IMG/VR virus record: IMGVR_UViG_3300023179_000356
Span: 1 to 30,491 of that record
Reading direction: 5' to 3' (one strand)
Source: a virus
Length of the DNA stretch: 30,491 nucleotides
Shown piece after piece: positions 11,449-29,915 of the stretch (its first letter is position 1; every line of letters starts with the position of its first letter). Made by a program: the position numbers and the translations under genes. The notes beneath the pieces are model-generated. The model did no database searches. It was not told the origin of the DNA and saw only the letters and a program-made list of their open reading frames with translations.

Positions 11449-11705
11449 TGGCTGGTGGAATTTATGCAGGATACAATGCTACTACTGGACATGATTATGC
11501 AGACAAAGCTTTCTATGGCTTTCGCATGGATGCTCCAAATGGTCAGCTATATTTTGATTTTGATAATGGTGTAGATGGTACTACAGTATATCTACCTGAC
11601 GAATATGCAACAAGTGCACAAGACTATTTAATATATTTTTGGTCAAGCGACACTATAAAATTTAGTGTTACAAGCAATGGCCGATTATTAATGGAGTACA
11701 AGTAA
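11448..11705 (+). CDS. Small structural protein of unknown function
   Basis: An 85-residue protein linked to both neighbours by one-base TAATG overlaps, at 11448 and 11705. It is rich in aromatic residues (YAGYNATTGHDYADKAFYGF, then LIYFWSSD) and acidic residues (DFDNGVDG), with no Cys and no membrane segment. The close coupling to the preceding beta-sandwich protein and to the large adhesin suggests a minor virion component or a fibre accessory protein. I do not recognise the family. Confidence 0.6.
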   Translation: MAGGIYAGYNATTGHDYADKAFYGFRMDAPNGQLYFDFDNGVDGTTVYLPDEYATSAQDYLIYFWSSDTIKFSVTSNGRLLMEYK

Positions 11706-14700
11706 TGGCTCAAATTTTAGATTTAGGTAAGATTAGATTTCAGTTTAAAGGCACTTGGAGCTCTACTACTGAATATCAATTTAATGATGTAGTGTTTTAT
11801 AAAGGTAATGGCTATGTATATATTAGCACAGCCAAAACTACTGGTACCCTAACTAGTAACACCCAATTCTGGGGATTGCTAGCTAGTGGACTATTCTGGG
11901 AAGGAGCTTATAGTTCTGCTACAGAATATGGACGTGGTAGTACTGTACTGTACAATGGCAGTATATATCAATATATAAATAGCGCTCCTAGTACAGGTAA
12001 TGTACCAACAAATACAACTTACTGGAATATTTTATTACTACAAAATACTGCTAGTGCTAATGTTTATTATGTTGCATCACATGGAGCTGATAGTGCTGGT
12101 CAAGGTAATAGTTTAAGTACTCCCTATTTAACCTTAAAATATGCCTGTGCCAATGTACCTACTGGTAGCACTATTTTTGTTAAAAGTGGTACTTATAATG
12201 AGCAATTACCAATTACAGTTCCTAGTAATGTAGCTATTGTAGGCGATAATCAACGTACAGTTATTATTCAACCTAAAAGTGGTAATAGTGATGATGGAAC
12301 AACGCCCAACGCTCAGGCTACTATGTTTTATATGTCAGATGGATCTATTTTAAACAAAATGACATTTAAAGGCATGACTGGATGGGTTACAGGAACAACT
12401 GCTCAAGATATTACTACTAGTACTATTAAAGGTGTTGTAGCTAGACTTAATCCTAATATCACTGTTACTACTAAATCTCCTTATATATTGGAATGTACTG
12501 CAATCGGTAGTGGTTGTATAGGTGCACTTGTAGATGGTAGCGTGCATGCTAGTGGCTATAAGTCTATGATATTTCATGGATACACAGTTATTAGCGATAA
12601 TGGTGTGGGTTATTGGGTTAAAGACGGTGCTAAAGCAGAAATAGTTAGCTGTTTTACTTATTATTGCTATTTTGGTTACGCTTGTACAGGCGGTGGACAT
12701 ATACGAGCTTTAAATGGCAATAATAGTTATGGAACTTATGGTGCTTATAGTAGAGGATTTGATGGTAGTGAAACTGCTATAACGGCTCAAGTACTAGGTA
12801 GTCAACTAAATTTCTTATATAGTGGTGGTAATATTAGTGCTGGTGATACCTGCACAAGTAATAGCGGAGCAACTGGTATAGTTACAAATGTACAATACAG
12901 TGCTAATAAAGTTTATTTGCGTAATACAACTGGTACATTTACAGTAGGCAATACTTTAACATTTACTAGTGGAGGTACTGGTACAGTAACAACAGGAGCT
13001 TTAGAAGGCCAAAAAGGTTTTGTACTAGTATTAAATACATTAACTGCTGCTCCAAAACCCGGCCAAAGTCTTCAACTAGGTGACGATAGTAATGCTTATG
13101 TAATTCAAAGCTATACTGGAACATATACAGATTCAAATAGTATTATAGTTGTAGTACTTGCACAAGAAAAAACAAATAGTAGTCCAGCTACAACTGTAGT
13201 AACCTTACGTTCAAAATACTCACAAATTAGACTAACTGGACATGATTTTTTAAATATTGGTACAGGTGGTATAACTACTACAAATTATCCTGGCACACCA
13301 ACACAAAGTCCTAGTCAAGGAAATGAGGCAAAACAAATATTTCCAGGAAGAATATTTTATGTTAGTACGGATCAAGACGGTAATTTTAGAGTAGGAGATT
13401 ATTTTAAAATTGATCAAGGTACTGGTAAAGCAACACTAAATGCAAGTGCTTTTGATTTAGCAGGTTTAAGTAGCTTAAGACTAGGTAGTATAGGTGCACA
13501 ATTAGGCGAATCTATCAATGAATTTAGCAGTGATGGTACTATGAGTGGTAATAGCAATTTAGCTGTTCCTACTGAAGCTGCTGTAATAACTTATGTAGGA
13601 ATTAAAACAAACTCTGTAGCTGGACCTAGTATTATATACCATCAAACTTCTCTTACTAAGACTGTTCAATATGATGTTTTTTCTGCTGCTGTTGCAGGAA
13701 CTCCTAATTATAGCTTAATAGGAACTGTACCTAGCGGGGTTACAATTAATGGCAGCACAGGCTTGTTAACTATTGGAAGTGGTACTAGTACTGGTACATA
13801 TAGTGCATTTAGTGTTCAAGCAGCATTTACTACTGGTGAGACATTAAAAAAGAGTATTACTCTATATGTAAATGCTGCTGTACCAGTATTTAGCACAGCT
13901 AATATAACAACAGGTATACCAACTAATACAGCATTTAGTTCAACAGCTACACAAGCAACTGCAGCAACTGGTACAGTAGTACATACAATTACTGAAGGTG
14001 CTTTACCTACTTGGGCAACTCTTGCATCAAATGGTACGCTATCCGGAACTACTCCTAGTACAGGATCTGGAACTTATATTGGTCCCTATAGTTTTACAGT
14101 AACTGCTACTAATGGTATTTATACAGCTACAAGAAGTTATACATGGTTAGTTTACTTAGGCCTAATTCAAGGACAGAATGCATACACAAGTCCAGGAACT
14201 TATAGTTGGACTGCTCCTAGTGGTGTTACTAGTGTTAGTGTTGTTGCCGTAGGCGGTGGTGGTGCTGGTCAAGATGGTTGGGCTAATCCTGCAGGTGCTG
14301 GTGGCGGTTTAGGTTGGAAAAATAATATTTCAGTAAATCCTGGACAGAGTTATACAGTAGTTGTTGGTAGTGGTGGAGTAAGCTCTAATGGCAATAATGA
14401 TTCACTAATTGGTGGTAATAGTTATTTTAACTCACTTACTACAGTAGCTGGCTATGGTGGTACTAACGCTAATAGAGGAGTTGGTGATCGTGGTCCAAAT
14501 AGTAATGGTTATGGTGGTGGTTATGTAGGTGATGGTGGTGGTGCAGGTGGCAACGCTAGTAACTGGACTTCTGCAGGTGGCGCTGGCGGTTATACAGCTC
14601 GTGGATATAATCAACAAGAGACCTGGAATGCTAGTTTAGATGGTGGAGGTGGTGGCGCATACTATAGCAGTACTTATGGAACTGGTGCTGGTGGTGGCGT

Positions 14701-15034
14701 AGGTATTTTGGGTAAAACAGGATATCCAAGCCCAGGTAACCCATTCTATAATCCATTTCAGGGCTATAACAATAGTCCAAGTACTGGTAGCGGTGGCAGT
14801 GGTGCTCATGGTGGTAGCAATGGTGGCTATGGCGAAAATCCATTTAGTAGTACTGCTCAAAGTAGTACTAATATTCCAGGAGGTAATTATGGAGGTGGTG
14901 GTGGTGGCCCAGGAAGTGGTTGGCCTAGTGCTAGTGGAGAGGGTGGTAGTGGAGCAGTTAGAATTATGTGGGGTAGCAATCGTAGTTATCCTAATACTAA
15001 TGTTGCTGATGTCTCACCAAGTGGCCCAAGCTAG
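11705..15034 (+). CDS. Large tail adhesin: beta-helix, Ig-like, glycine-rich tip
   Basis: A 1109-residue fibre/adhesin. Residues 5-110 contain two copies of a W-x(n)-Y-x-x-x-D/S-x-V-x-Y/F carbohydrate-binding-like repeat (FKGTWSSTTEYQFNDVVFYK and WEGAYSSATEYGRGSTVLYN). From about 120 a right-handed beta-helix of the DUF1565/pectate-lyase-like type begins (YYVASHGADSAGQGNSLSTP, TIFVKSGTYNE), as in glycan-degrading or glycan-binding tailspikes. Residues about 500-640 match a segment shared by marine phage fibres (IFYVSTDQDGNFRVGDYFKI, SSLRLGSIG). Two putative Ig-like domains lie at about 655-815. The last 280 residues are a glycine-rich domain beginning SPGTYSWTAPSGVTSVSVVA, like the polyglycine tips of T4-type adhesins. 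A chaperone gene follows directly. No catalytic residues can be assigned safely. Confidence 0.82.
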   Translation: MAQILDLGKIRFQFKGTWSSTTEYQFNDVVFYKGNGYVYISTAKTTGTLTSNTQFWGLLASGLFWEGAYSSATEYGRGSTVLYNGSIYQYINSAPSTGNVPTNTTYWNILLLQNTASANVYYVASHGADSAGQGNSLSTPYLTLKYACANVPTGSTIFVKSGTYNEQLPITVPSNVAIVGDNQRTVIIQPKSGNSDDGTTPNAQATMFYMSDGSILNKMTFKGMTGWVTGTTAQDITTSTIKGVVARLNPNITVTTKSPYILECTAIGSGCIGALVDGSVHASGYKSMIFHGYTVISDNGVGYWVKDGAKAEIVSCFTYYCYFGYACTGGGHIRALNGNNSYGTYGAYSRGFDGSETAITAQVLGSQLNFLYSGGNISAGDTCTSNSGATGIVTNVQYSANKVYLRNTTGTFTVGNTLTFTSGGTGTVTTGALEGQKGFVLVLNTLTAAPKPGQSLQLGDDSNAYVIQSYTGTYTDSNSIIVVVLAQEKTNSSPATTVVTLRSKYSQIRLTGHDFLNIGTGGITTTNYPGTPTQSPSQGNEAKQIFPGRIFYVSTDQDGNFRVGDYFKIDQGTGKATLNASAFDLAGLSSLRLGSIGAQLGESINEFSSDGTMSGNSNLAVPTEAAVITYVGIKTNSVAGPSIIYHQTSLTKTVQYDVFSAAVAGTPNYSLIGTVPSGVTINGSTGLLTIGSGTSTGTYSAFSVQAAFTTGETLKKSITLYVNAAVPVFSTANITTGIPTNTAFSSTATQATAATGTVVHTITEGALPTWATLASNGTLSGTTPSTGSGTYIGPYSFTVTATNGIYTATRSYTWLVYLGLIQGQNAYTSPGTYSWTAPSGVTSVSVVAVGGGGAGQDGWANPAGAGGGLGWKNNISVNPGQSYTVVVGSGGVSSNGNNDSLIGGNSYFNSLTTVAGYGGTNANRGVGDRGPNSNGYGGGYVGDGGGAGGNASNWTSAGGAGGYTARGYNQQETWNASLDGGGGGAYYSSTYGTGAGGGVGILGKTGYPSPGNPFYNPFQGYNNSPSTGSGGSGAHGGSNGGYGENPFSSTAQSSTNIPGGNYGGGGGGPGSGWPSASGEGGSGAVRIMWGSNRSYPNTNVADVSPSGPS

Positions 15035-15046
15035 GAGAATAATTAA

Positions 15047-15496
15047 ATGTTATATATAAAACTTGATAATAACGGTAACCCAATAAATCATCCACTAACT
15101 GGAGATAACTTAAAGTATGTTTTAGAAGAATCTATTTTAACTGAAGATGTATTAAAAAAATATGGTTATGCTAAATTTGAGTTTACACCACTTCCAGCAA
15201 ATGCTGTTAGCCAAGCATTGCCAGAATATTTTATTGATATAGACGGAATTGTTCGCAATAGAATTACAATTCGCGAATTTACTCACGAAGAATTAATAGA
15301 TAAGTTTATCAGATCACGTAGAAGTTATTTGCTAGTTGAATCTGATTGGACTCAAACTATAGATAGCCCACTTTCTGCTGAAAAAAAGGCTGAATGGGCA
15401 GCATATAGACAAGCTTTAAGAGATTTACCTAATTTATACTTAAATACACAGATTCAACAACAAAGCGATATTGAATGGCCAACCAAACCAAGCTGA
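15047..15496 (+). CDS. Tail fibre assembly chaperone (Phage_tail_APC type)
   Basis: A 149-residue protein. The C-terminal half has the signature of tail-assembly chaperones: RSYLLVESDWTQTIDSPLSA, then EWAAYRQALRDLP and a terminal WPTKPS. The N-terminal half is a small beta domain (LYIKLDNNGNPINHPLTGDN). Such proteins fold or attach the distal fibre encoded just upstream, here the glycine-rich adhesin that ends 12 bases before. The ribosome site AGGAGAA precedes the ATG. The end overlaps the start of the first 2OG oxygenase gene by 22 bases, so the non-structural cassette that follows is probably on the same transcript. Confidence 0.82.
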   Translation: MLYIKLDNNGNPINHPLTGDNLKYVLEESILTEDVLKKYGYAKFEFTPLPANAVSQALPEYFIDIDGIVRNRITIREFTHEELIDKFIRSRRSYLLVESDWTQTIDSPLSAEKKAEWAAYRQALRDLPNLYLNTQIQQQSDIEWPTKPS

Positions 15497-16137
15497 CAAA
15501 TCAATTTCTACAAAATATTTTTCAAACACCACTATTAGTTGGTTATAGTGATAGTAAACATATACAAGAAAAAATATGTACTCTTGCTTATAAGTTTATA
15601 GAAACAGCCTCCAATGCGGGGCTTGTTTCTGAAGGCTGGAATTATGCTAAACGTTCATCTTCTAAAGAAGATTTTAATAACTATGGTGTTACATCTTTTA
15701 ATTCTAATTCTTTACTTGATTTACCAGAGTGGAAAGAAGTAATTGATTTTTTATATGATTTTGCAAATACTATGATATCCACTGTAAATGACAGTAATAA
15801 AAATATTAAATTTGTAAATAGTTGGGTTACAATATATCCGCCTAAAACTTATGTGCCAGAGCATATACACTCTAATTCTCTTTTAAGTGGCGTATTTTAT
15901 GCTAAAGTTTCTAATAACTGTGGTAATTTAATATTTAAGGATCCCGCAGCTGTTGCTAAAACAATGTGTATAGCAGATATAAATTATTTTCCAACTGTTA
16001 AAACAATCTATACGCATATAGTTGAACAAGGACAAATGATTATTTTTCCTTCTTGGCTACCACATTTAACAGAACAAAATCATTCTGATAGTGATCGTAT
16101 AATGGTTAGCTTTAATATTGACTTAGATAAAAATTAA
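15475..16137 (+). CDS. 2OG-Fe(II) oxygenase, TIGR02466-like
   Basis: A 220-residue protein resembling the putative 2OG-Fe(II) oxygenase family TIGR02466/PF13759. The core VNSWVTIYPPKTYVPEHIHS carries the expected metal-binding motif in H-x-H form (His130, His132), followed by SLLSGVFYAKV. The distal part FPSWLPHLTEQNHSDSDRIM supplies His197 and the 2-oxoglutarate-binding Arg208, followed by VSFNI. Enzymes of this fold couple decarboxylation of 2-oxoglutarate to oxidation of a target; the target here is unknown. The gene begins inside the chaperone gene (22-base overlap) and is followed 11 bases later by a second oxygenase of a different subfamily. Modification of a virion protein or of a host molecule are both possible. 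Confidence 0.8.
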   Translation: MANQTKLTNQFLQNIFQTPLLVGYSDSKHIQEKICTLAYKFIETASNAGLVSEGWNYAKRSSSKEDFNNYGVTSFNSNSLLDLPEWKEVIDFLYDFANTMISTVNDSNKNIKFVNSWVTIYPPKTYVPEHIHSNSLLSGVFYAKVSNNCGNLIFKDPAAVAKTMCIADINYFPTVKTIYTHIVEQGQMIIFPSWLPHLTEQNHSDSDRIMVSFNIDLDKN

Positions 16138-16148
16138 AAATATATTAC

Positions 16149-16688
16149 ATGAAACCAATTTATAAGTATTATCATAATTTTTTAACTGAACAAGAGTGCA
16201 ATTATTTGATCGAAAATAATACGATCAAGTTAGAATCAGCAAAGATTTCAAATAATAAAAAACCAAGTATGTTAATAAGAAAAAGTAAAGTTAGTTGGAT
16301 CGCCAAAGATGTTGATAGCAAATCTGATGAAATTATACAAAAAATAGTTGACTTAATGTTTTGGGAAAGTAAGGAAACACATGATATAAAGCTAACATCA
16401 GTAGAACCAGTACAATTTGCTAAATATGGGCTACTAGATCACTATGCAAAACACATAGACATAGGAACAAATGATAGTAATTATAGAATACTAAGTGCTG
16501 TTGTAGAATTAACTAATCCAAATAATTATTTAGGCGGTGGGTTAAATATTTATATTGCTAATCAAGTACATAAAATGCCATTTAAACAAGGAACTGTAGT
16601 TTTATTTCCTTCTATATTAACACATAAAGCAAAACCTGTATTCTATGGTACAAGGTATTCTCTTAGTTTATGGGGATGTAAAACTTAA
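16149..16688 (+). CDS. 2OG-Fe(II) oxygenase, prolyl-4-hydroxylase-like
   Basis: A 179-residue oxygenase of the P4H/PKHD type, smaller than and clearly different from its neighbour. The metal triad is complete: H102-x-D104 in YAKHIDIG and distal His159 in PSILTHKAKPV, with Arg169 (GTRYSLSLW) for 2-oxoglutarate binding. NPNNYLGGGLNIYI matches the usual Y-x-G-G-x-L strand. Proteins of this type occur in many marine phages, but substrates are unknown. The gene ends one base before the heme oxygenase start, so the four-gene cassette is probably co-translated. Both 2OG and heme oxygenases use O2 and reductant, but I see no direct biochemical link. Confidence 0.87.
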   Translation: MKPIYKYYHNFLTEQECNYLIENNTIKLESAKISNNKKPSMLIRKSKVSWIAKDVDSKSDEIIQKIVDLMFWESKETHDIKLTSVEPVQFAKYGLLDHYAKHIDIGTNDSNYRILSAVVELTNPNNYLGGGLNIYIANQVHKMPFKQGTVVLFPSILTHKAKPVFYGTRYSLSLWGCKT

Positions 16689-16689
16689 T

Positions 16690-17211
16690 ATGCTTACTCT
16701 AAAAGAGCTAACTAGTGAAAACCATAAAATTGCTGAAAATCATGTTTTTACCAAATTATTGCTTAGTGGTAAAATCACCAAACAAATATATGCAACCTAT
16801 TTAGCTAATCAATTACAGCAATATAGTATACTAGAATCTAAAGCGGTAAGTTTATTAAATAAACTACCTGGTATATACCGCACTCATTTAATTTTACAGG
16901 ATTTAGTAGAGTTAAATACATCAGCTATTGTTTTTCAAACTACTGTTGAATATTTTAATCGTATTATAAAACTAAATAGTAATGAGTTATGGTCGCATAT
17001 ATACACTAAACATATGGGTGATTTATATGGTGGCCAAATAATTAAAAGTAAAGTGCCAGGAAGTGGCAAAATGTATCAGTTTAATAATAGATTAGATCTA
17101 ATTAACAATTTACGTTCAAATTTAGATTTAAACATGGCTACTGAAGCTAATTGGTGTTTTAAATCAACAATAGATCTTTTTGATAATATAGCTAATGAGT
17201 ATAATCTTTAA
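16690..17211 (+). CDS. ho1: Heme oxygenase (biliverdin-forming), compact phage type
   Basis: A 173-residue heme oxygenase, which opens heme to biliverdin, CO and Fe(II) using O2 and electrons. The proximal heme ligand is His12 in LTSENHKIAEN, matching the T-x-x-x-H-x-x-A-E motif. The distal-helix signature is HMGDLYGGQ (Gly110, Asp111, Gly114, Gly115). The helical pattern between them fits the all-alpha HO fold. It is shorter than typical cyanobacterial HO1 (about 230 residues) because the C-terminal tail is reduced. The ATG at 16690, just after the oxygenase stop, is preferred over an upstream in-frame ATG at 16645 that would add 15 residues unrelated to HOs. The product biliverdin is the substrate of the next gene, which overlaps by 17 bases. 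Confidence 0.9.
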   Translation: MLTLKELTSENHKIAENHVFTKLLLSGKITKQIYATYLANQLQQYSILESKAVSLLNKLPGIYRTHLILQDLVELNTSAIVFQTTVEYFNRIIKLNSNELWSHIYTKHMGDLYGGQIIKSKVPGSGKMYQFNNRLDLINNLRSNLDLNMATEANWCFKSTIDLFDNIANEYNL

Positions 17212-17854
17212 TAGACTAAAACAACACGAAAAAGCCTTAGAAGAAATACTATCCTCTAAGGCTTTTTCAATACCTGACAAAAACATCTATACCTGGACTA
17301 ATAAAGTTTTTAGTAATAGTTATATAAGACGTGCCCACTTAGATTGTATAGATGCTATAACCACAAAAAAATTATACATGATGCATCTATGTGTATTTCC
17401 AAACACTAAACTAAATGCACCTATATATGGTTTTGATATTATTGCTGGCCCAAATAAGGTAACCGGAGCATTTTTAGATATTAGTCCTATAGACCCTAAA
17501 CATCCTATGTGTAATTGGTATAAAGATCTAGTAAAAGATCTTGTTTGGTCAAAGCCTAGACAGTTGCCTGAATGGGCACAAAAAATATTTAGTAGTAATA
17601 TGATTGCTGCTGGAAATATTAGTAGTGAAGCAGAATTAAGTGTTATATTAGAGCTAAGTATAACAATGTTAAATAAATATTTAGATTTAGTAGAATTGAG
17701 TACAAGTAGTGTGGATTATACTAATAAACAAAACTACTACTGCAAGCAACAAAAATGTAATCCACATACGCCAAAAGTTTTAAAAAGCATTGGTTTTAGT
17801 GAGCAATTAATCAATGACTTTATCAATAATTGTTTATTTCCAGAAGTGGTTTAA
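17195..17854 (+). CDS. pcyX: Ferredoxin-dependent bilin reductase, PcyX-type
   Basis: A 219-residue member of the FDBR family, closest in pattern to PcyA. The core reads RRAHLDCIDA, MMHLCVFPN, then YGFDIIAGPNKVTGAFLDIS. Against cyanobacterial PcyA the catalytic His88 and Asp105 correspond to His64 and Asp81, whereas PcyA Glu76 is Asp50. That Glu-to-Asp change is the reported hallmark of PcyX, a phage-only clade that makes phycoerythrobilin from biliverdin by four-electron reduction. The C-terminal YYCKQQKCNPHTPKVL also fits the PcyA/PcyX end. Electrons would come from ferredoxin of host or phage; none is encoded here. It overlaps the heme oxygenase gene and ends with tandem TAA stops. PcyX is preferred over PebS and PcyA; product identity is inferred. 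Confidence 0.87.
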   Translation: MSIIFNRLKQHEKALEEILSSKAFSIPDKNIYTWTNKVFSNSYIRRAHLDCIDAITTKKLYMMHLCVFPNTKLNAPIYGFDIIAGPNKVTGAFLDISPIDPKHPMCNWYKDLVKDLVWSKPRQLPEWAQKIFSSNMIAAGNISSEAELSVILELSITMLNKYLDLVELSTSSVDYTNKQNYYCKQQKCNPHTPKVLKSIGFSEQLINDFINNCLFPEVV

Positions 17855-25847: not shown

Positions 25848-27083
25848 ATGAATACTAAATTAGCAACAATTATATGTAGCGATGTAATTGGTTATAGTAG
25901 TTTAATGCAAAAAGATGAAATAGGCACACTACAAAAACTAGATAAATGTCGTGAAAAAATAGACTTATTAATTAGTAAGCATAGAGGAAGACTATTTAAT
26001 ACTGGTGGTGATAGCGTATTAATTGAATTTAGTAGTGCTGTTGATGCTGTTAAGTTTGGAGTAGAAATGCAAAATGAAATGCATACTTTAAATAATGGTA
26101 TGCGTTGGCGTATAGGCATACATATAGGAGAAGTTTGGATTTATGGAACTAATCTTATGGGTGATGCTGTTAATCTTGCTGCTCGTACAGAAAGCTTAGC
26201 AGATTATAGTGGTGTTACTATGACTGAAGCAGTTTATAGTCTAGTAAAAGGTAAATTAAAAGAATACGAATATATTAGTCGTGGTAAACAAGAATTTAAA
26301 AATGTTGATCCAATGGAAATATGGAGTATAGTACTCCCTTATGCAGAACCTAATCCTAATTTAAATAAAGCACCAAAAATTAAAAATAATACAGCAGCTA
26401 AAAGTCATAAAGAACTTGTAGCTGCTGTATTAAATGATCAGGCGGCTAGAAATAAAACTCTAGCCGATGCTCAAAATTTTAAACGTAATAAAAACTTTGG
26501 TCCAGCTACTAGAGTATTAATGTGGCGAATAACTAAGCAAGATAAATCTGCATTAGATGAACTTATTAGTATTGGTTTAAAAGATTTAATTCCTCAAGAA
26601 CTACAAGCCTATGTTGTAGCAATATTTAAAGAGTTTTGTTTTAAAGTTGATAGTGATCAAGCTCTAAATATTGCTGATTTATGCGAAAAATATAATAACT
26701 ACTCTACAGCATTAGAATTTGTAAAAAATGCTGCCAAAGTAAACGAAAAAGCCCAAGAAAGATATGCTATAATGATTTTTAATGATCCTACTAGTAGTCC
26801 ACAAGAAATAGATAATATATTAAACGATTTAAAAGAAGCGGGTATGAAGAAAAATGTTAGTGCTATGTTAAAACTTGGAGAATATTATCTTAAAACTAAT
26901 GATAAAAAGAACTCTTTTAGATGGCTGTATGCTGCTAGAGCACAGCATAATTCAACAGCTCAAAAATTACTAGAAGATCTTAATAAAACTATTAGTAAAG
27001 CAGAGTTTCAAAATTTTAAAACCGATGCTGATGCTCTTGTAGATCAAATAAAATTTATGGATGATAATAGGATGAAACAATAA
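25848..27083 (+). CDS. Class III nucleotide cyclase with helical/Sel1-like C-terminus
   Basis: A 411-residue soluble protein. Residues 1-165 form a class III cyclase catalytic domain: LATIICSDVIGYSSLM with metal-binding Asp12, RLFNTGGDSVLIEF with metal-binding Asp55, and MGDAVNLAARTES with transition-state residues Asn109 and Arg113. These suggest an active enzyme making a cyclic nucleotide from an NTP. The two residues that select adenine in classical adenylate cyclases (Lys and Asp in mycobacterial Rv1625c) are Asn51 and Asn102 here, so the substrate cannot be assumed to be ATP. Residues about 180-411 are helical and include a Sel1/TPR-like unit (SAMLKLGEYYLKTNDKKNSF, WLYAARAQHNSTA), probably for protein contact. 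No membrane segment is present. The next gene starts one base after the stop. Confidence 0.88.
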   Translation: MNTKLATIICSDVIGYSSLMQKDEIGTLQKLDKCREKIDLLISKHRGRLFNTGGDSVLIEFSSAVDAVKFGVEMQNEMHTLNNGMRWRIGIHIGEVWIYGTNLMGDAVNLAARTESLADYSGVTMTEAVYSLVKGKLKEYEYISRGKQEFKNVDPMEIWSIVLPYAEPNPNLNKAPKIKNNTAAKSHKELVAAVLNDQAARNKTLADAQNFKRNKNFGPATRVLMWRITKQDKSALDELISIGLKDLIPQELQAYVVAIFKEFCFKVDSDQALNIADLCEKYNNYSTALEFVKNAAKVNEKAQERYAIMIFNDPTSSPQEIDNILNDLKEAGMKKNVSAMLKLGEYYLKTNDKKNSFRWLYAARAQHNSTAQKLLEDLNKTISKAEFQNFKTDADALVDQIKFMDDNRMKQ

Positions 27084-27747: not shown

Positions 27748-27954
27748 TTTTACTACTTCTAAAGTTGGAGCAGAATCTTTATCAGATTCTTCATCTTTAT
27801 TTAGTTCTTCTAATTGTTCATTAGCTTGAATCTGTATCTTTCTAGTTAATGGATTACAAATTTTAGCCGGTAATTCTTGAAGAGACACTAATATACTATT
27901 AATCTCGTTTACAGTTAATCTTAGTGTTAAAATTTCTTTATCTGTATCAATCAT
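27745..27954 (-). CDS. Small conserved RNR-linked phage protein
   Basis: A 69-residue protein starting at 27954, where its ATG overlaps the RNR stop as ATGA; an in-frame ATG 27 bases further upstream lies inside the RNR gene and is less likely. The first 50 residues (EILTLRLTVNEINSILVSLQ, ELPAKICNPLTRKIQIQA) follow an L-x-L-x-V-x-E-I-N-x-I-L...L-P...L-x-x-K-I-Q pattern that I recognise from small proteins in many phages, often called hypothetical. The C-terminus is acidic and probably disordered (LNKDEESDKDS). It is the last gene before the bidirectional terminator. Function unknown. Confidence 0.75.
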   Translation of the reverse strand: MIDTDKEILTLRLTVNEINSILVSLQELPAKICNPLTRKIQIQANEQLEELNKDEESDKDSAPTLEVVK

Positions 27955-29915
27955 TTTACGGGGCAAACTCCAGTAGCACATTCATCATCTAACAATTCGT
28001 CAAAACTGTTAGCACTTTCTATATCAATTGTTTTTAGATTGTAAATATAATCTTTATATGTTTTCTCGTCCACAACTTCTTGTGGCAGATATAAATAACC
28101 TAAATCTTGAGCAGTTTTAGTAGGATCAGTTCTATAAATAAAACTTACACCTACATAGCAGTCCCAGTTATTTAGCAACCAATCTATAATTTCTGTAACC
28201 TCACTAGGATCATAACTAATAGTTACACTAGTATTTTGTTGTGTCCAGCTAGTTTGTAATAATTTATATCTTTCTAGCTGATAAACAGCACTTTCAAGAT
28301 TGACTTCTTTATTACCATCTTTATGAAAAGGCACATCTTTCCACTCTACTGGAAAGGTTACTAAGACGCCAGTTGGATCTGTAGGATGATTAATTACCCT
28401 ATAACCAGCATCTCGAAGTATAGGAATCATTGGATCGTATGTACTAAATTGCACATTGTTAAAAATGTATTTACCTAGTGGTTTGTGTACACCTTCTGTA
28501 CAATCCATGATTTTGCTAAGCGTACCAGATGGCTTAATACAAGTAACATTTTTAGGTCTTGGTAAGCCTAATTCATCTGCCATTGAAATGGCACTTGATG
28601 TGGCTGTGCGCTTTAAATATTCATAGTCATAGCTAGTCATATCAGGACGCATTGCAATACCTGTTAAACCTACTCCACAGAGACGTAAGAAATAGTTGTT
28701 AAGGTGCCAAGCTTCTTGTAAGATCCCGTCTTTAAGATTAACACAGGTCTGACGATAATTTGCCCTGGCAGCCAATCTGATCGCATCGTGTAATCCTGCG
28801 GTGTCACCTTTAAACTTGGAGATATCCGTTTCCGTAAGGTTACAGAAGGCTTTGTTACCCAACAAGATTTCAACACAGGGATTTGCTCCTTTAAACCACG
28901 GAGCACGTCTAAGAGCTTCTTGTTCATTAATAAATCCTGGCTCACTGCCACCAGCCTCTAGCATAAGATTAAAAATCTCTTTTAGCTCTTGACGTGTTGG
29001 CTTTTCTTTAAATACTAAACTGTTATTTGATTGCTGACGATGTTCGCGATTATATAGCCAAAAATCTTTTTTAGCTATGGCAAATTCTTGCCATTCCGGC
29101 TGACCATAGTCAAAAAGAGCGATTTCAGCCGATCTACGACTAGATAATATCGTTCCAAGATGATTAATAATGTCAAGAATATCCATCCTAGTAAGAAGGC
29201 TGTCAGCCCTACCATTAAGTATGTTGGCAATTGCAACATAAGCTTTTGAGATAGCACTGTCACCACTGCTAATCCATCCATATCCTTTTAACCTTTCTCC
29301 AGCTGGTCTTAGTTGACTAAAATCAAGTACAAGAGTAGTAGCAGGATACTTGCCCGCAAGAAGCTTTCCAATAGACTTGGCCCACGCTTCTGCGCTGTCT
29401 CCAACCTGAATTGTCCAAGTTTTTGTTGTTGGATCCCAAGTTTCAACATTGTGTTCAAGTCCTCCTTTAGCAGTTCGTTGGCTCTTAACAACTTGAATAT
29501 TTTTAATTGGTTTTGAGAATCCATTTAGTGTGCCTACAATAGGTTTAAATCCAACTCCACAACCCTGTAATAATAACCATAAACAATCTACTACATCGTA
29601 TACTGTTTCTACTTGTGTAAAACTACAGTTAAATTGACTGGCTTCACGAGTTTGTGCCACTGTAGTACCACCTAGCCAAAGTGTTCGTCCGGCCATTAAT
29701 ACCTTGCGCTCTAGCATTAGCTTTTCTAGTTGATCTAGTTCTTCTACTTCATTGAAAAAGAGCTGACGTCCTACAGCTCGCTCCCATAACCAGTGTTGAT
29801 GATCTTTAACTCGTCTAACAGTTTGTTGCCAGTTTTCAAATTGTTTACCATCATCACTAGTAGGACGATTATAAGTTCGTCTAGTAATTACTTGTGCGCG
29901 TGTGCTTACTTGCAT
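27951..29915 (-). CDS. nrdJ: Class II (adenosylcobalamin-dependent) ribonucleoside-triphosphate reductase
   Basis: A 654-residue monomeric RTPR, which converts NTPs to dNTPs with a cobalamin-generated thiyl radical. Key residues are visible: Cys97 (SQFNCSFTQ) and Cys358 (KAFCNLTE) as the active-site disulfide pair, and radical-site Cys347 with Asn345 and Glu349 in GANPCVEIL. The 11-residue spacing of Cys347 to Cys358 equals that of the Lactobacillus enzyme. The C-terminal relay pair is Cys646/Cys651 in ECATGVCPVK. CIKPSGTLSKIMDC matches the phosphate-binding loop. It is somewhat shorter than the 739-residue Lactobacillus protein. GGAGAAATT precedes the ATG. No radical activator is needed, but the host must supply B12. 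It lies downstream of dut, eight bases apart. Confidence 0.94.
   Translation of the reverse strand: MQVSTRAQVITRRTYNRPTSDDGKQFENWQQTVRRVKDHQHWLWERAVGRQLFFNEVEELDQLEKLMLERKVLMAGRTLWLGGTTVAQTREASQFNCSFTQVETVYDVVDCLWLLLQGCGVGFKPIVGTLNGFSKPIKNIQVVKSQRTAKGGLEHNVETWDPTTKTWTIQVGDSAEAWAKSIGKLLAGKYPATTLVLDFSQLRPAGERLKGYGWISSGDSAISKAYVAIANILNGRADSLLTRMDILDIINHLGTILSSRRSAEIALFDYGQPEWQEFAIAKKDFWLYNREHRQQSNNSLVFKEKPTRQELKEIFNLMLEAGGSEPGFINEQEALRRAPWFKGANPCVEILLGNKAFCNLTETDISKFKGDTAGLHDAIRLAARANYRQTCVNLKDGILQEAWHLNNYFLRLCGVGLTGIAMRPDMTSYDYEYLKRTATSSAISMADELGLPRPKNVTCIKPSGTLSKIMDCTEGVHKPLGKYIFNNVQFSTYDPMIPILRDAGYRVINHPTDPTGVLVTFPVEWKDVPFHKDGNKEVNLESAVYQLERYKLLQTSWTQQNTSVTISYDPSEVTEIIDWLLNNWDCYVGVSFIYRTDPTKTAQDLGYLYLPQEVVDEKTYKDYIYNLKTIDIESANSFDELLDDECATGVCPVK

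Follow-up and report, generated by a model that had tools for sequence, protein, structure and literature searches.

A phage cassette of heme oxygenase and PcyX-type bilin reductase genes, most likely from a T5-like phage whose host is not a cyanobacterium

Phage-borne ferredoxin-dependent bilin reductases (FDBRs) of several kinds have been described. PcyX_EBK42635 (PDB 5owg) is a metagenomic phage phycoerythrobilin synthase, and characterised PcyX converts biliverdin to phycoerythrobilin via 15,16-dihydrobiliverdin (PMC6755814, PMC11480375). Glu76 of PcyA is absent in PcyX (PMC10151467), and the Asp at this position, numbered Asp55, is PcyX-specific (PMC11480375). Published marine PcyX contigs have been placed with pelagiphage myoviruses. 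The 141-kb T4-like Pelagibacter phage Mosig EXVC030M (MT647606), which has a Gp23 capsid, carries a heme oxygenase (HO) gene that overlaps its PcyX gene, with 2OG-Fe(II) oxygenase genes upstream of the pair. The freshwater phage enzyme CB_2, an HO-linked PcyA of the AX group, is missing the PcyX-specific Asp and makes phycocyanobilin (PMC11480375). Cyanophages carry PcyA, with a Glu-His-Asp active site, and PebS, with Asn for His, on other branches of the FDBR tree and together with psbA.

The window, which is the whole stretch of 30,491 nucleotides analysed here, is an IMG/VR fragment of an uncultured, probably aquatic phage. Its reductase shares with PcyX_EBK42635 the clade, the Asp-His-Asp triad, the checked pocket residues and the fold, but lies in another sub-branch of the clade. 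It resembles Mosig in gene arrangement and CB_2 in HO linkage and AX grouping, and it differs from the cyanophage enzymes in active site, tree branch and psbA association. The enzyme belongs to the known PcyX family, whose occurrence in marine phages has already been published. We regard it as highly probable that positions 16690-17854 form a phage auxiliary metabolic cassette leading from heme through biliverdin to phycoerythrobilin; its carrier is most likely T5-like and infects a host outside the cyanobacteria. The features of the region are as follows.

15475..16137, plus strand: second 2OG-Fe(II) oxygenase gene (PF13759, E 2e-20)
16149..16688, plus strand: 2OG-Fe(II) oxygenase gene directly upstream of the heme oxygenase gene (PF13640, E 1e-12)
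16690..17211, plus strand: heme oxygenase gene, 173 amino acids (PF01126, E 1.6e-16; motifs; co-occurrence with the reductase)
17195..17211, plus strand: 17-base overlap of the heme oxygenase and reductase genes (sequence)
17195..17854, plus strand: pcyX-type FDBR gene, 219 amino acids (PF05996, 5owg match, tree, AlphaFold model)
17342..17344, plus strand: codon of Asp50, PcyA Glu76 position (sequence, alignment)
17378..17380, plus strand: codon of Met62, PcyA Ile86 position, covarying with Asp50 (alignment)
17384..17386, plus strand: codon of His64, PcyA His88 position (sequence, alignment)
17435..17437, plus strand: codon of Asp81, PcyA Asp105 position (sequence, alignment)

The reductase gene is a clean open reading frame from ATG to stop. 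Its product contains the FDBR domain, matching Pfam PF05996 (Fe_bilin_red) with 78.8 bits (E 6e-22) against a cut-off of 31. Among proteins of solved structure PcyX_EBK42635 is the closest (E 2e-52), the best PcyA match being at 7e-14, and the NCBIfam PcyA equivalog model NF002760 gives 96.2 bits, far below its cut-off of 206. For an AlphaFold model, 32 window and locus sequences were used; its mean pLDDT is 94.4, and it matches all FDBR structures (Z 25.9 for PcyA and 23.8 for PcyX 5owg). It superposes on 5owg with an rmsd of 1.2 A over 171 residues, at 41% identity in the structural match, and on PcyA with 2.2 A over 213 residues. As expected of PcyX, the gene is phage-borne, lying in a virus record, and linked to a heme oxygenase gene. 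The start of the latter was set at the ATG at 16690, a longer open reading frame opening at 16645, and its product contains a proximal-His motif, NHKIAE (HxxAE type), and a distal-helix motif, GDLYGGQ. The overlap is consistent with co-expression of the two genes as one unit, and a neighbourhood survey found the heme oxygenase gene paired with the reductase gene in 77 of 80 loci. Neither this overlapping gene nor the two adjacent 2OG-Fe(II) oxygenase genes were mentioned in the original prediction, which was made from the DNA letters of the window.

Additional sequence lies between the two genes in six other loci (L032, L033, L040, L054, L058 and L061), the first three of which have a 2OG-Fe(II) oxygenase gene there; the cassette can therefore gain genes while its linkage is kept. 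5-ALA synthase as a third cassette gene was not found in 47 records. PcyX-type reductases with Asp-His-Asp and a heme oxygenase gene are also encountered on four contigs binned as bacterial MAGs (L083-L086), which are either mis-binned phage contigs or a true bacterial copy. One of these, L085, is a 335-kb contig labelled Neomarinimicrobiota, with a nitrilase-like gene between the heme oxygenase and reductase genes and IMPDH and Hsp20 genes nearby.

The prediction had equated Asp50, His64 and Asp81 with PcyA Glu76, His88 and Asp105, and the translation and an alignment to Synechocystis PcyA (E76=D50, H88=H64, D105=D81) bear this out. The three residues lie within RRAHLD, MMHLC and GFDIIAG, respectively, and D63, H77 and D94 of the 5owg chain (tag-shifted numbering) occupy the same columns. 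The catalytic Glu76 of PcyA is absent from the window enzyme, which has Asp50 instead. At all PcyA pocket positions checked, the window enzyme is identical to PcyX_EBK42635; this includes the PcyX-type Met62, Cys66, Pro190 and His191, where cyanobacterial PcyA has other residues. Position 50 was counted in 76 sequences of the phage group, namely the window (once), the Mosig FDBR and 74 IMG/VR relatives, with cyanophage PcyA left out: 60 possess Asp, 14 Glu and 2 Ser, and His64 and Asp81 are invariant. The triad had been offered as evidence for the PcyX clade. This stands insofar as the literature describes the Asp as PcyX-specific, but the triad alone is weak evidence, since the 14 Glu and 2 Ser sequences among the 76 belong to the same phage group. 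One PebS (P-RSM6) also aligns Asp at the Glu76 column, but there Asn replaces His64.

The two Ser-His-Asp proteins, same-clade phage FDBRs at L053:5869-6543 and L071:5962-6660, represent a third active-site state, and both loci have kept the heme oxygenase gene. An FDBR-like fragment with Thr at the Glu76 position (L092:4872-5309) is found on a Bacteroidetes MAG contig. In the non-redundant phage-type set, Asp50 is accompanied by Met62 in 43 of 43 sequences, and all five sequences without Asp have Ile, Val or Leu. Because the covariation is perfect, position 62 (PcyA Ile86) is a second marker, one that the prediction did not contain. Asp50 is a lineage marker and at most a putative determinant of the product. 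Ledermann et al. (FEBS J, 2018) reportedly found that PcyX can do without this Asp in catalysis and that restoring the Glu did not make PcyX a PcyA; Asp50 alone could therefore not fix the product.

Phylogenetic analysis was performed with IQ-TREE on 66 rows from which the position-50 column had been removed. The window enzyme falls inside a phage clade of 46 rows together with PcyX_EBK42635 and the Mosig FDBR (support 99/99). The sister of this clade is PcyA of Roseomonas-type alphaproteobacteria (100/99), and such a grouping of phage and alphaproteobacterial PcyA matches the AX clade of PMC10151467. PebS forms a separate branch (100/100), and cyanophage and Synechocystis PcyA stand outside the clade, cyanobacterial PcyA being represented in the tree by one PDB sequence fragment and the cyanophage copies. 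Long branches are found mostly in the PebA/PebS/HY2 part and in cyanophage PcyA, and the end branch of the window enzyme measures only 0.27. Forcing it together with cyano-type PcyA gave a tree 27.8 log units worse (p-AU 0.04), and a cyanophage-PcyA placement is rejected by tree and residues alike. In the first tree, the Glu and Ser phage sequences are nested among the Asp-bearing ones; constraining the Asp sequences to one clade gives an equally good tree (p-AU 0.64), so a single origin of Asp is possible. The predicted placement in the PcyX clade thus agrees with the FDBR phylogeny that had been proposed as its check, in which the enzyme groups with neither PebS nor cyanobacterial or cyanophage PcyA. 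As the tree was built without the Asp50 column, the clade assignment is firmer than the triad.

The phage origin and the shared product class might suggest a PebS-type phycoerythrobilin synthase, yet in PebS the position of His64 (PcyA His88) is occupied by Asn, and the loop of its C-terminal helix contains an Asp-Pro (Asp206) where the window enzyme has Asn189-Pro; the two are also separated by branches of 100/100 support with about 18-20% identity. A PebS identity is rejected on the tree and on His64 and Asn189, and its probability is negligible.

The substrate, product, order of steps and electron donor are proposed here by analogy with characterised relatives. The heme oxygenase would convert host heme to biliverdin IXalpha, Fe2+ and CO. 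The PcyX-type reductase would then take single electrons from host ferredoxin and reduce biliverdin in two two-electron steps, the first at C15=C16 to give 15,16-dihydrobiliverdin and the second in the A-ring to give phycoerythrobilin, with His64 and Asp81 as the probable proton-handling pair. A plant-type ferredoxin gene, which Mosig possesses, was found neither in the window nor in the IMG/VR relatives that were searched; the donor would therefore come from the host or from the unsequenced part of the phage. Since the window enzyme shares residues and clade with characterised PcyX, phycoerythrobilin is the expected and likely product, although the characterised PcyX belongs to another sub-branch, the identity in the alignment being 48% to PcyX_EBK42635 and 42% to the Mosig enzyme. 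FDBR phylogeny and regiospecificity at times correlate weakly, and structure/function relations are not reliably predictable (PMC13193486). Together with the alphaproteobacterial PcyA as nearest cellular relatives in the tree and with CB_2, an HO-linked phage FDBR near the clade, this leaves some room for an enzyme with PcyA function, whose product would be phycocyanobilin. The window enzyme, however, possesses the PcyX-specific Asp that is missing in CB_2 and the Met62 that goes with it, and it scores far below the PcyA equivalog cut-off, and such a function appears unlikely. 

The carrier can only be inferred, because the window itself holds no core gene: genes for a T5-like capsid, portal and DNA polymerase are found not within its 30 kb but in the collinear relatives G001, G003 and G008. 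With bases 1-25000 as query, no nucleotide-level match was found among 50,697 phage records, and there is no isolate close enough to name the host of the window phage. Two relatives, G001 and G002, are nearly collinear with the window, their class II ribonucleotide reductases being 95 and 91% and their PhoH proteins 90 and 81% identical to those of the window. Beyond the extent of the window, G001 has genes for a helicase, for an SbcC-like nuclease subunit and for a family A DNA polymerase that shares 48% identity with those of T5-like Vibrio phages, and G002 has open reading frames of matching size and order. An HK97-type portal is found in G003 and G008, and the fused protease-capsid protein and portal of G003 are closest to those of T5-like phages (30-39%). 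A T4-type capsid gene is present in Mosig, which differs in this from the relatives of the window, and in four other records. To judge from these collinear relatives, the carrier is most likely T5-like, with a host other than a cyanobacterium. The published contigs having been assigned to pelagiphage myoviruses, a T5-like lineage as PcyX carrier looks new, and no combination of a T5-like phage with a PcyX cassette was found in the limited collection of literature searched.

Two further genes lie in the right-hand part of the window. The product of 25848-27083 (plus strand) contains a class III nucleotidyl cyclase domain (PF00211) and a long C-terminal part, is kept at 64-68% in two relatives and might make a phage-derived cyclic-nucleotide signal. 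Positions 27951-29915 (minus strand) encode a class II ribonucleotide reductase of the B12-dependent kind, which shares 60-69% identity with those of roseobacter phages and uncultured aquatic phages. No tRNAs or Rfam families were detected in the window.

The prediction had left the use of the pigment open, no phycobiliprotein or lyase gene being visible; a search of the window likewise found neither a phycobiliprotein nor a lyase (CpeT) gene. The PcyX-type phage set was extended to 41 records (the window, Mosig and 39 from IMG/VR; 1.64 Mb), Glu- and Ser-type relatives included. CpeT, phycobiliprotein genes and psbA, of which about 8 would be expected at cyanophage density, are each found in 0 of the 41, most of which are fragments and not a random sample, so that the absence of psbA and CpeT is not conclusive. 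Among cyanophages with PcyA or PebS, psbA is present in 6 of 6 and CpeT in 4 of 6. In cyanophages, pebS/ho1 have been proposed to supply the host phycobilisomes, and the window holds a tail-fibre gene (11705-15034) with cyanophage relatives; tail-fibre genes flank the cassette on both sides. That the phage infects a cyanobacterium and feeds its phycobilisomes with phycoerythrobilin is nevertheless very unlikely, given the missing psbA and CpeT and a sole isolate that infects Pelagibacter. A light-harvesting role is therefore unlikely, and the release of iron, or the bilin as a signal or cofactor, are candidate roles.

The first of these would leave the chemistry unchanged: the point of the cassette would be heme-iron release, with the reductase drawing off biliverdin and the bilin as a by-product. 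An iron role has been discussed (PMC11480375), light-harvesting genes are lacking in all 41 records, and iron-dependent enzymes are encoded nearby, namely by the two 2OG-Fe(II) oxygenase genes that adjoin the cassette. A homology search, however, found such oxygenases near the cassette in about one third or fewer of the loci. Their genes are common among aquatic phages in general, and a four-electron reductase with an intact active site suggests that the bilin itself matters. Iron release is a substantial possibility, though we would not favour it. It is also conceivable, at somewhat less than even odds, that the HO-PcyX cassette has spread over unrelated T4-like and T5-like phages of non-photosynthetic bacteria and that the Glu76 position has diversified there (Asp, Glu, Ser), so that the bilin made would differ between phages and would serve some end other than light harvesting.

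The enzyme type itself is not new, and the value of the locus lies in its carrier and in the sequence set assembled around it. With a T5-like lineage, the known carriers of the cassette would no longer be pelagiphage myoviruses alone. The naturally occurring Asp, Glu and Ser variants, with Met62 as the partner of Asp50, provide a ready test of product choice in FDBRs, and the missing photosynthesis genes sharpen the question of what bilins are for in phages whose hosts are not cyanobacteria.
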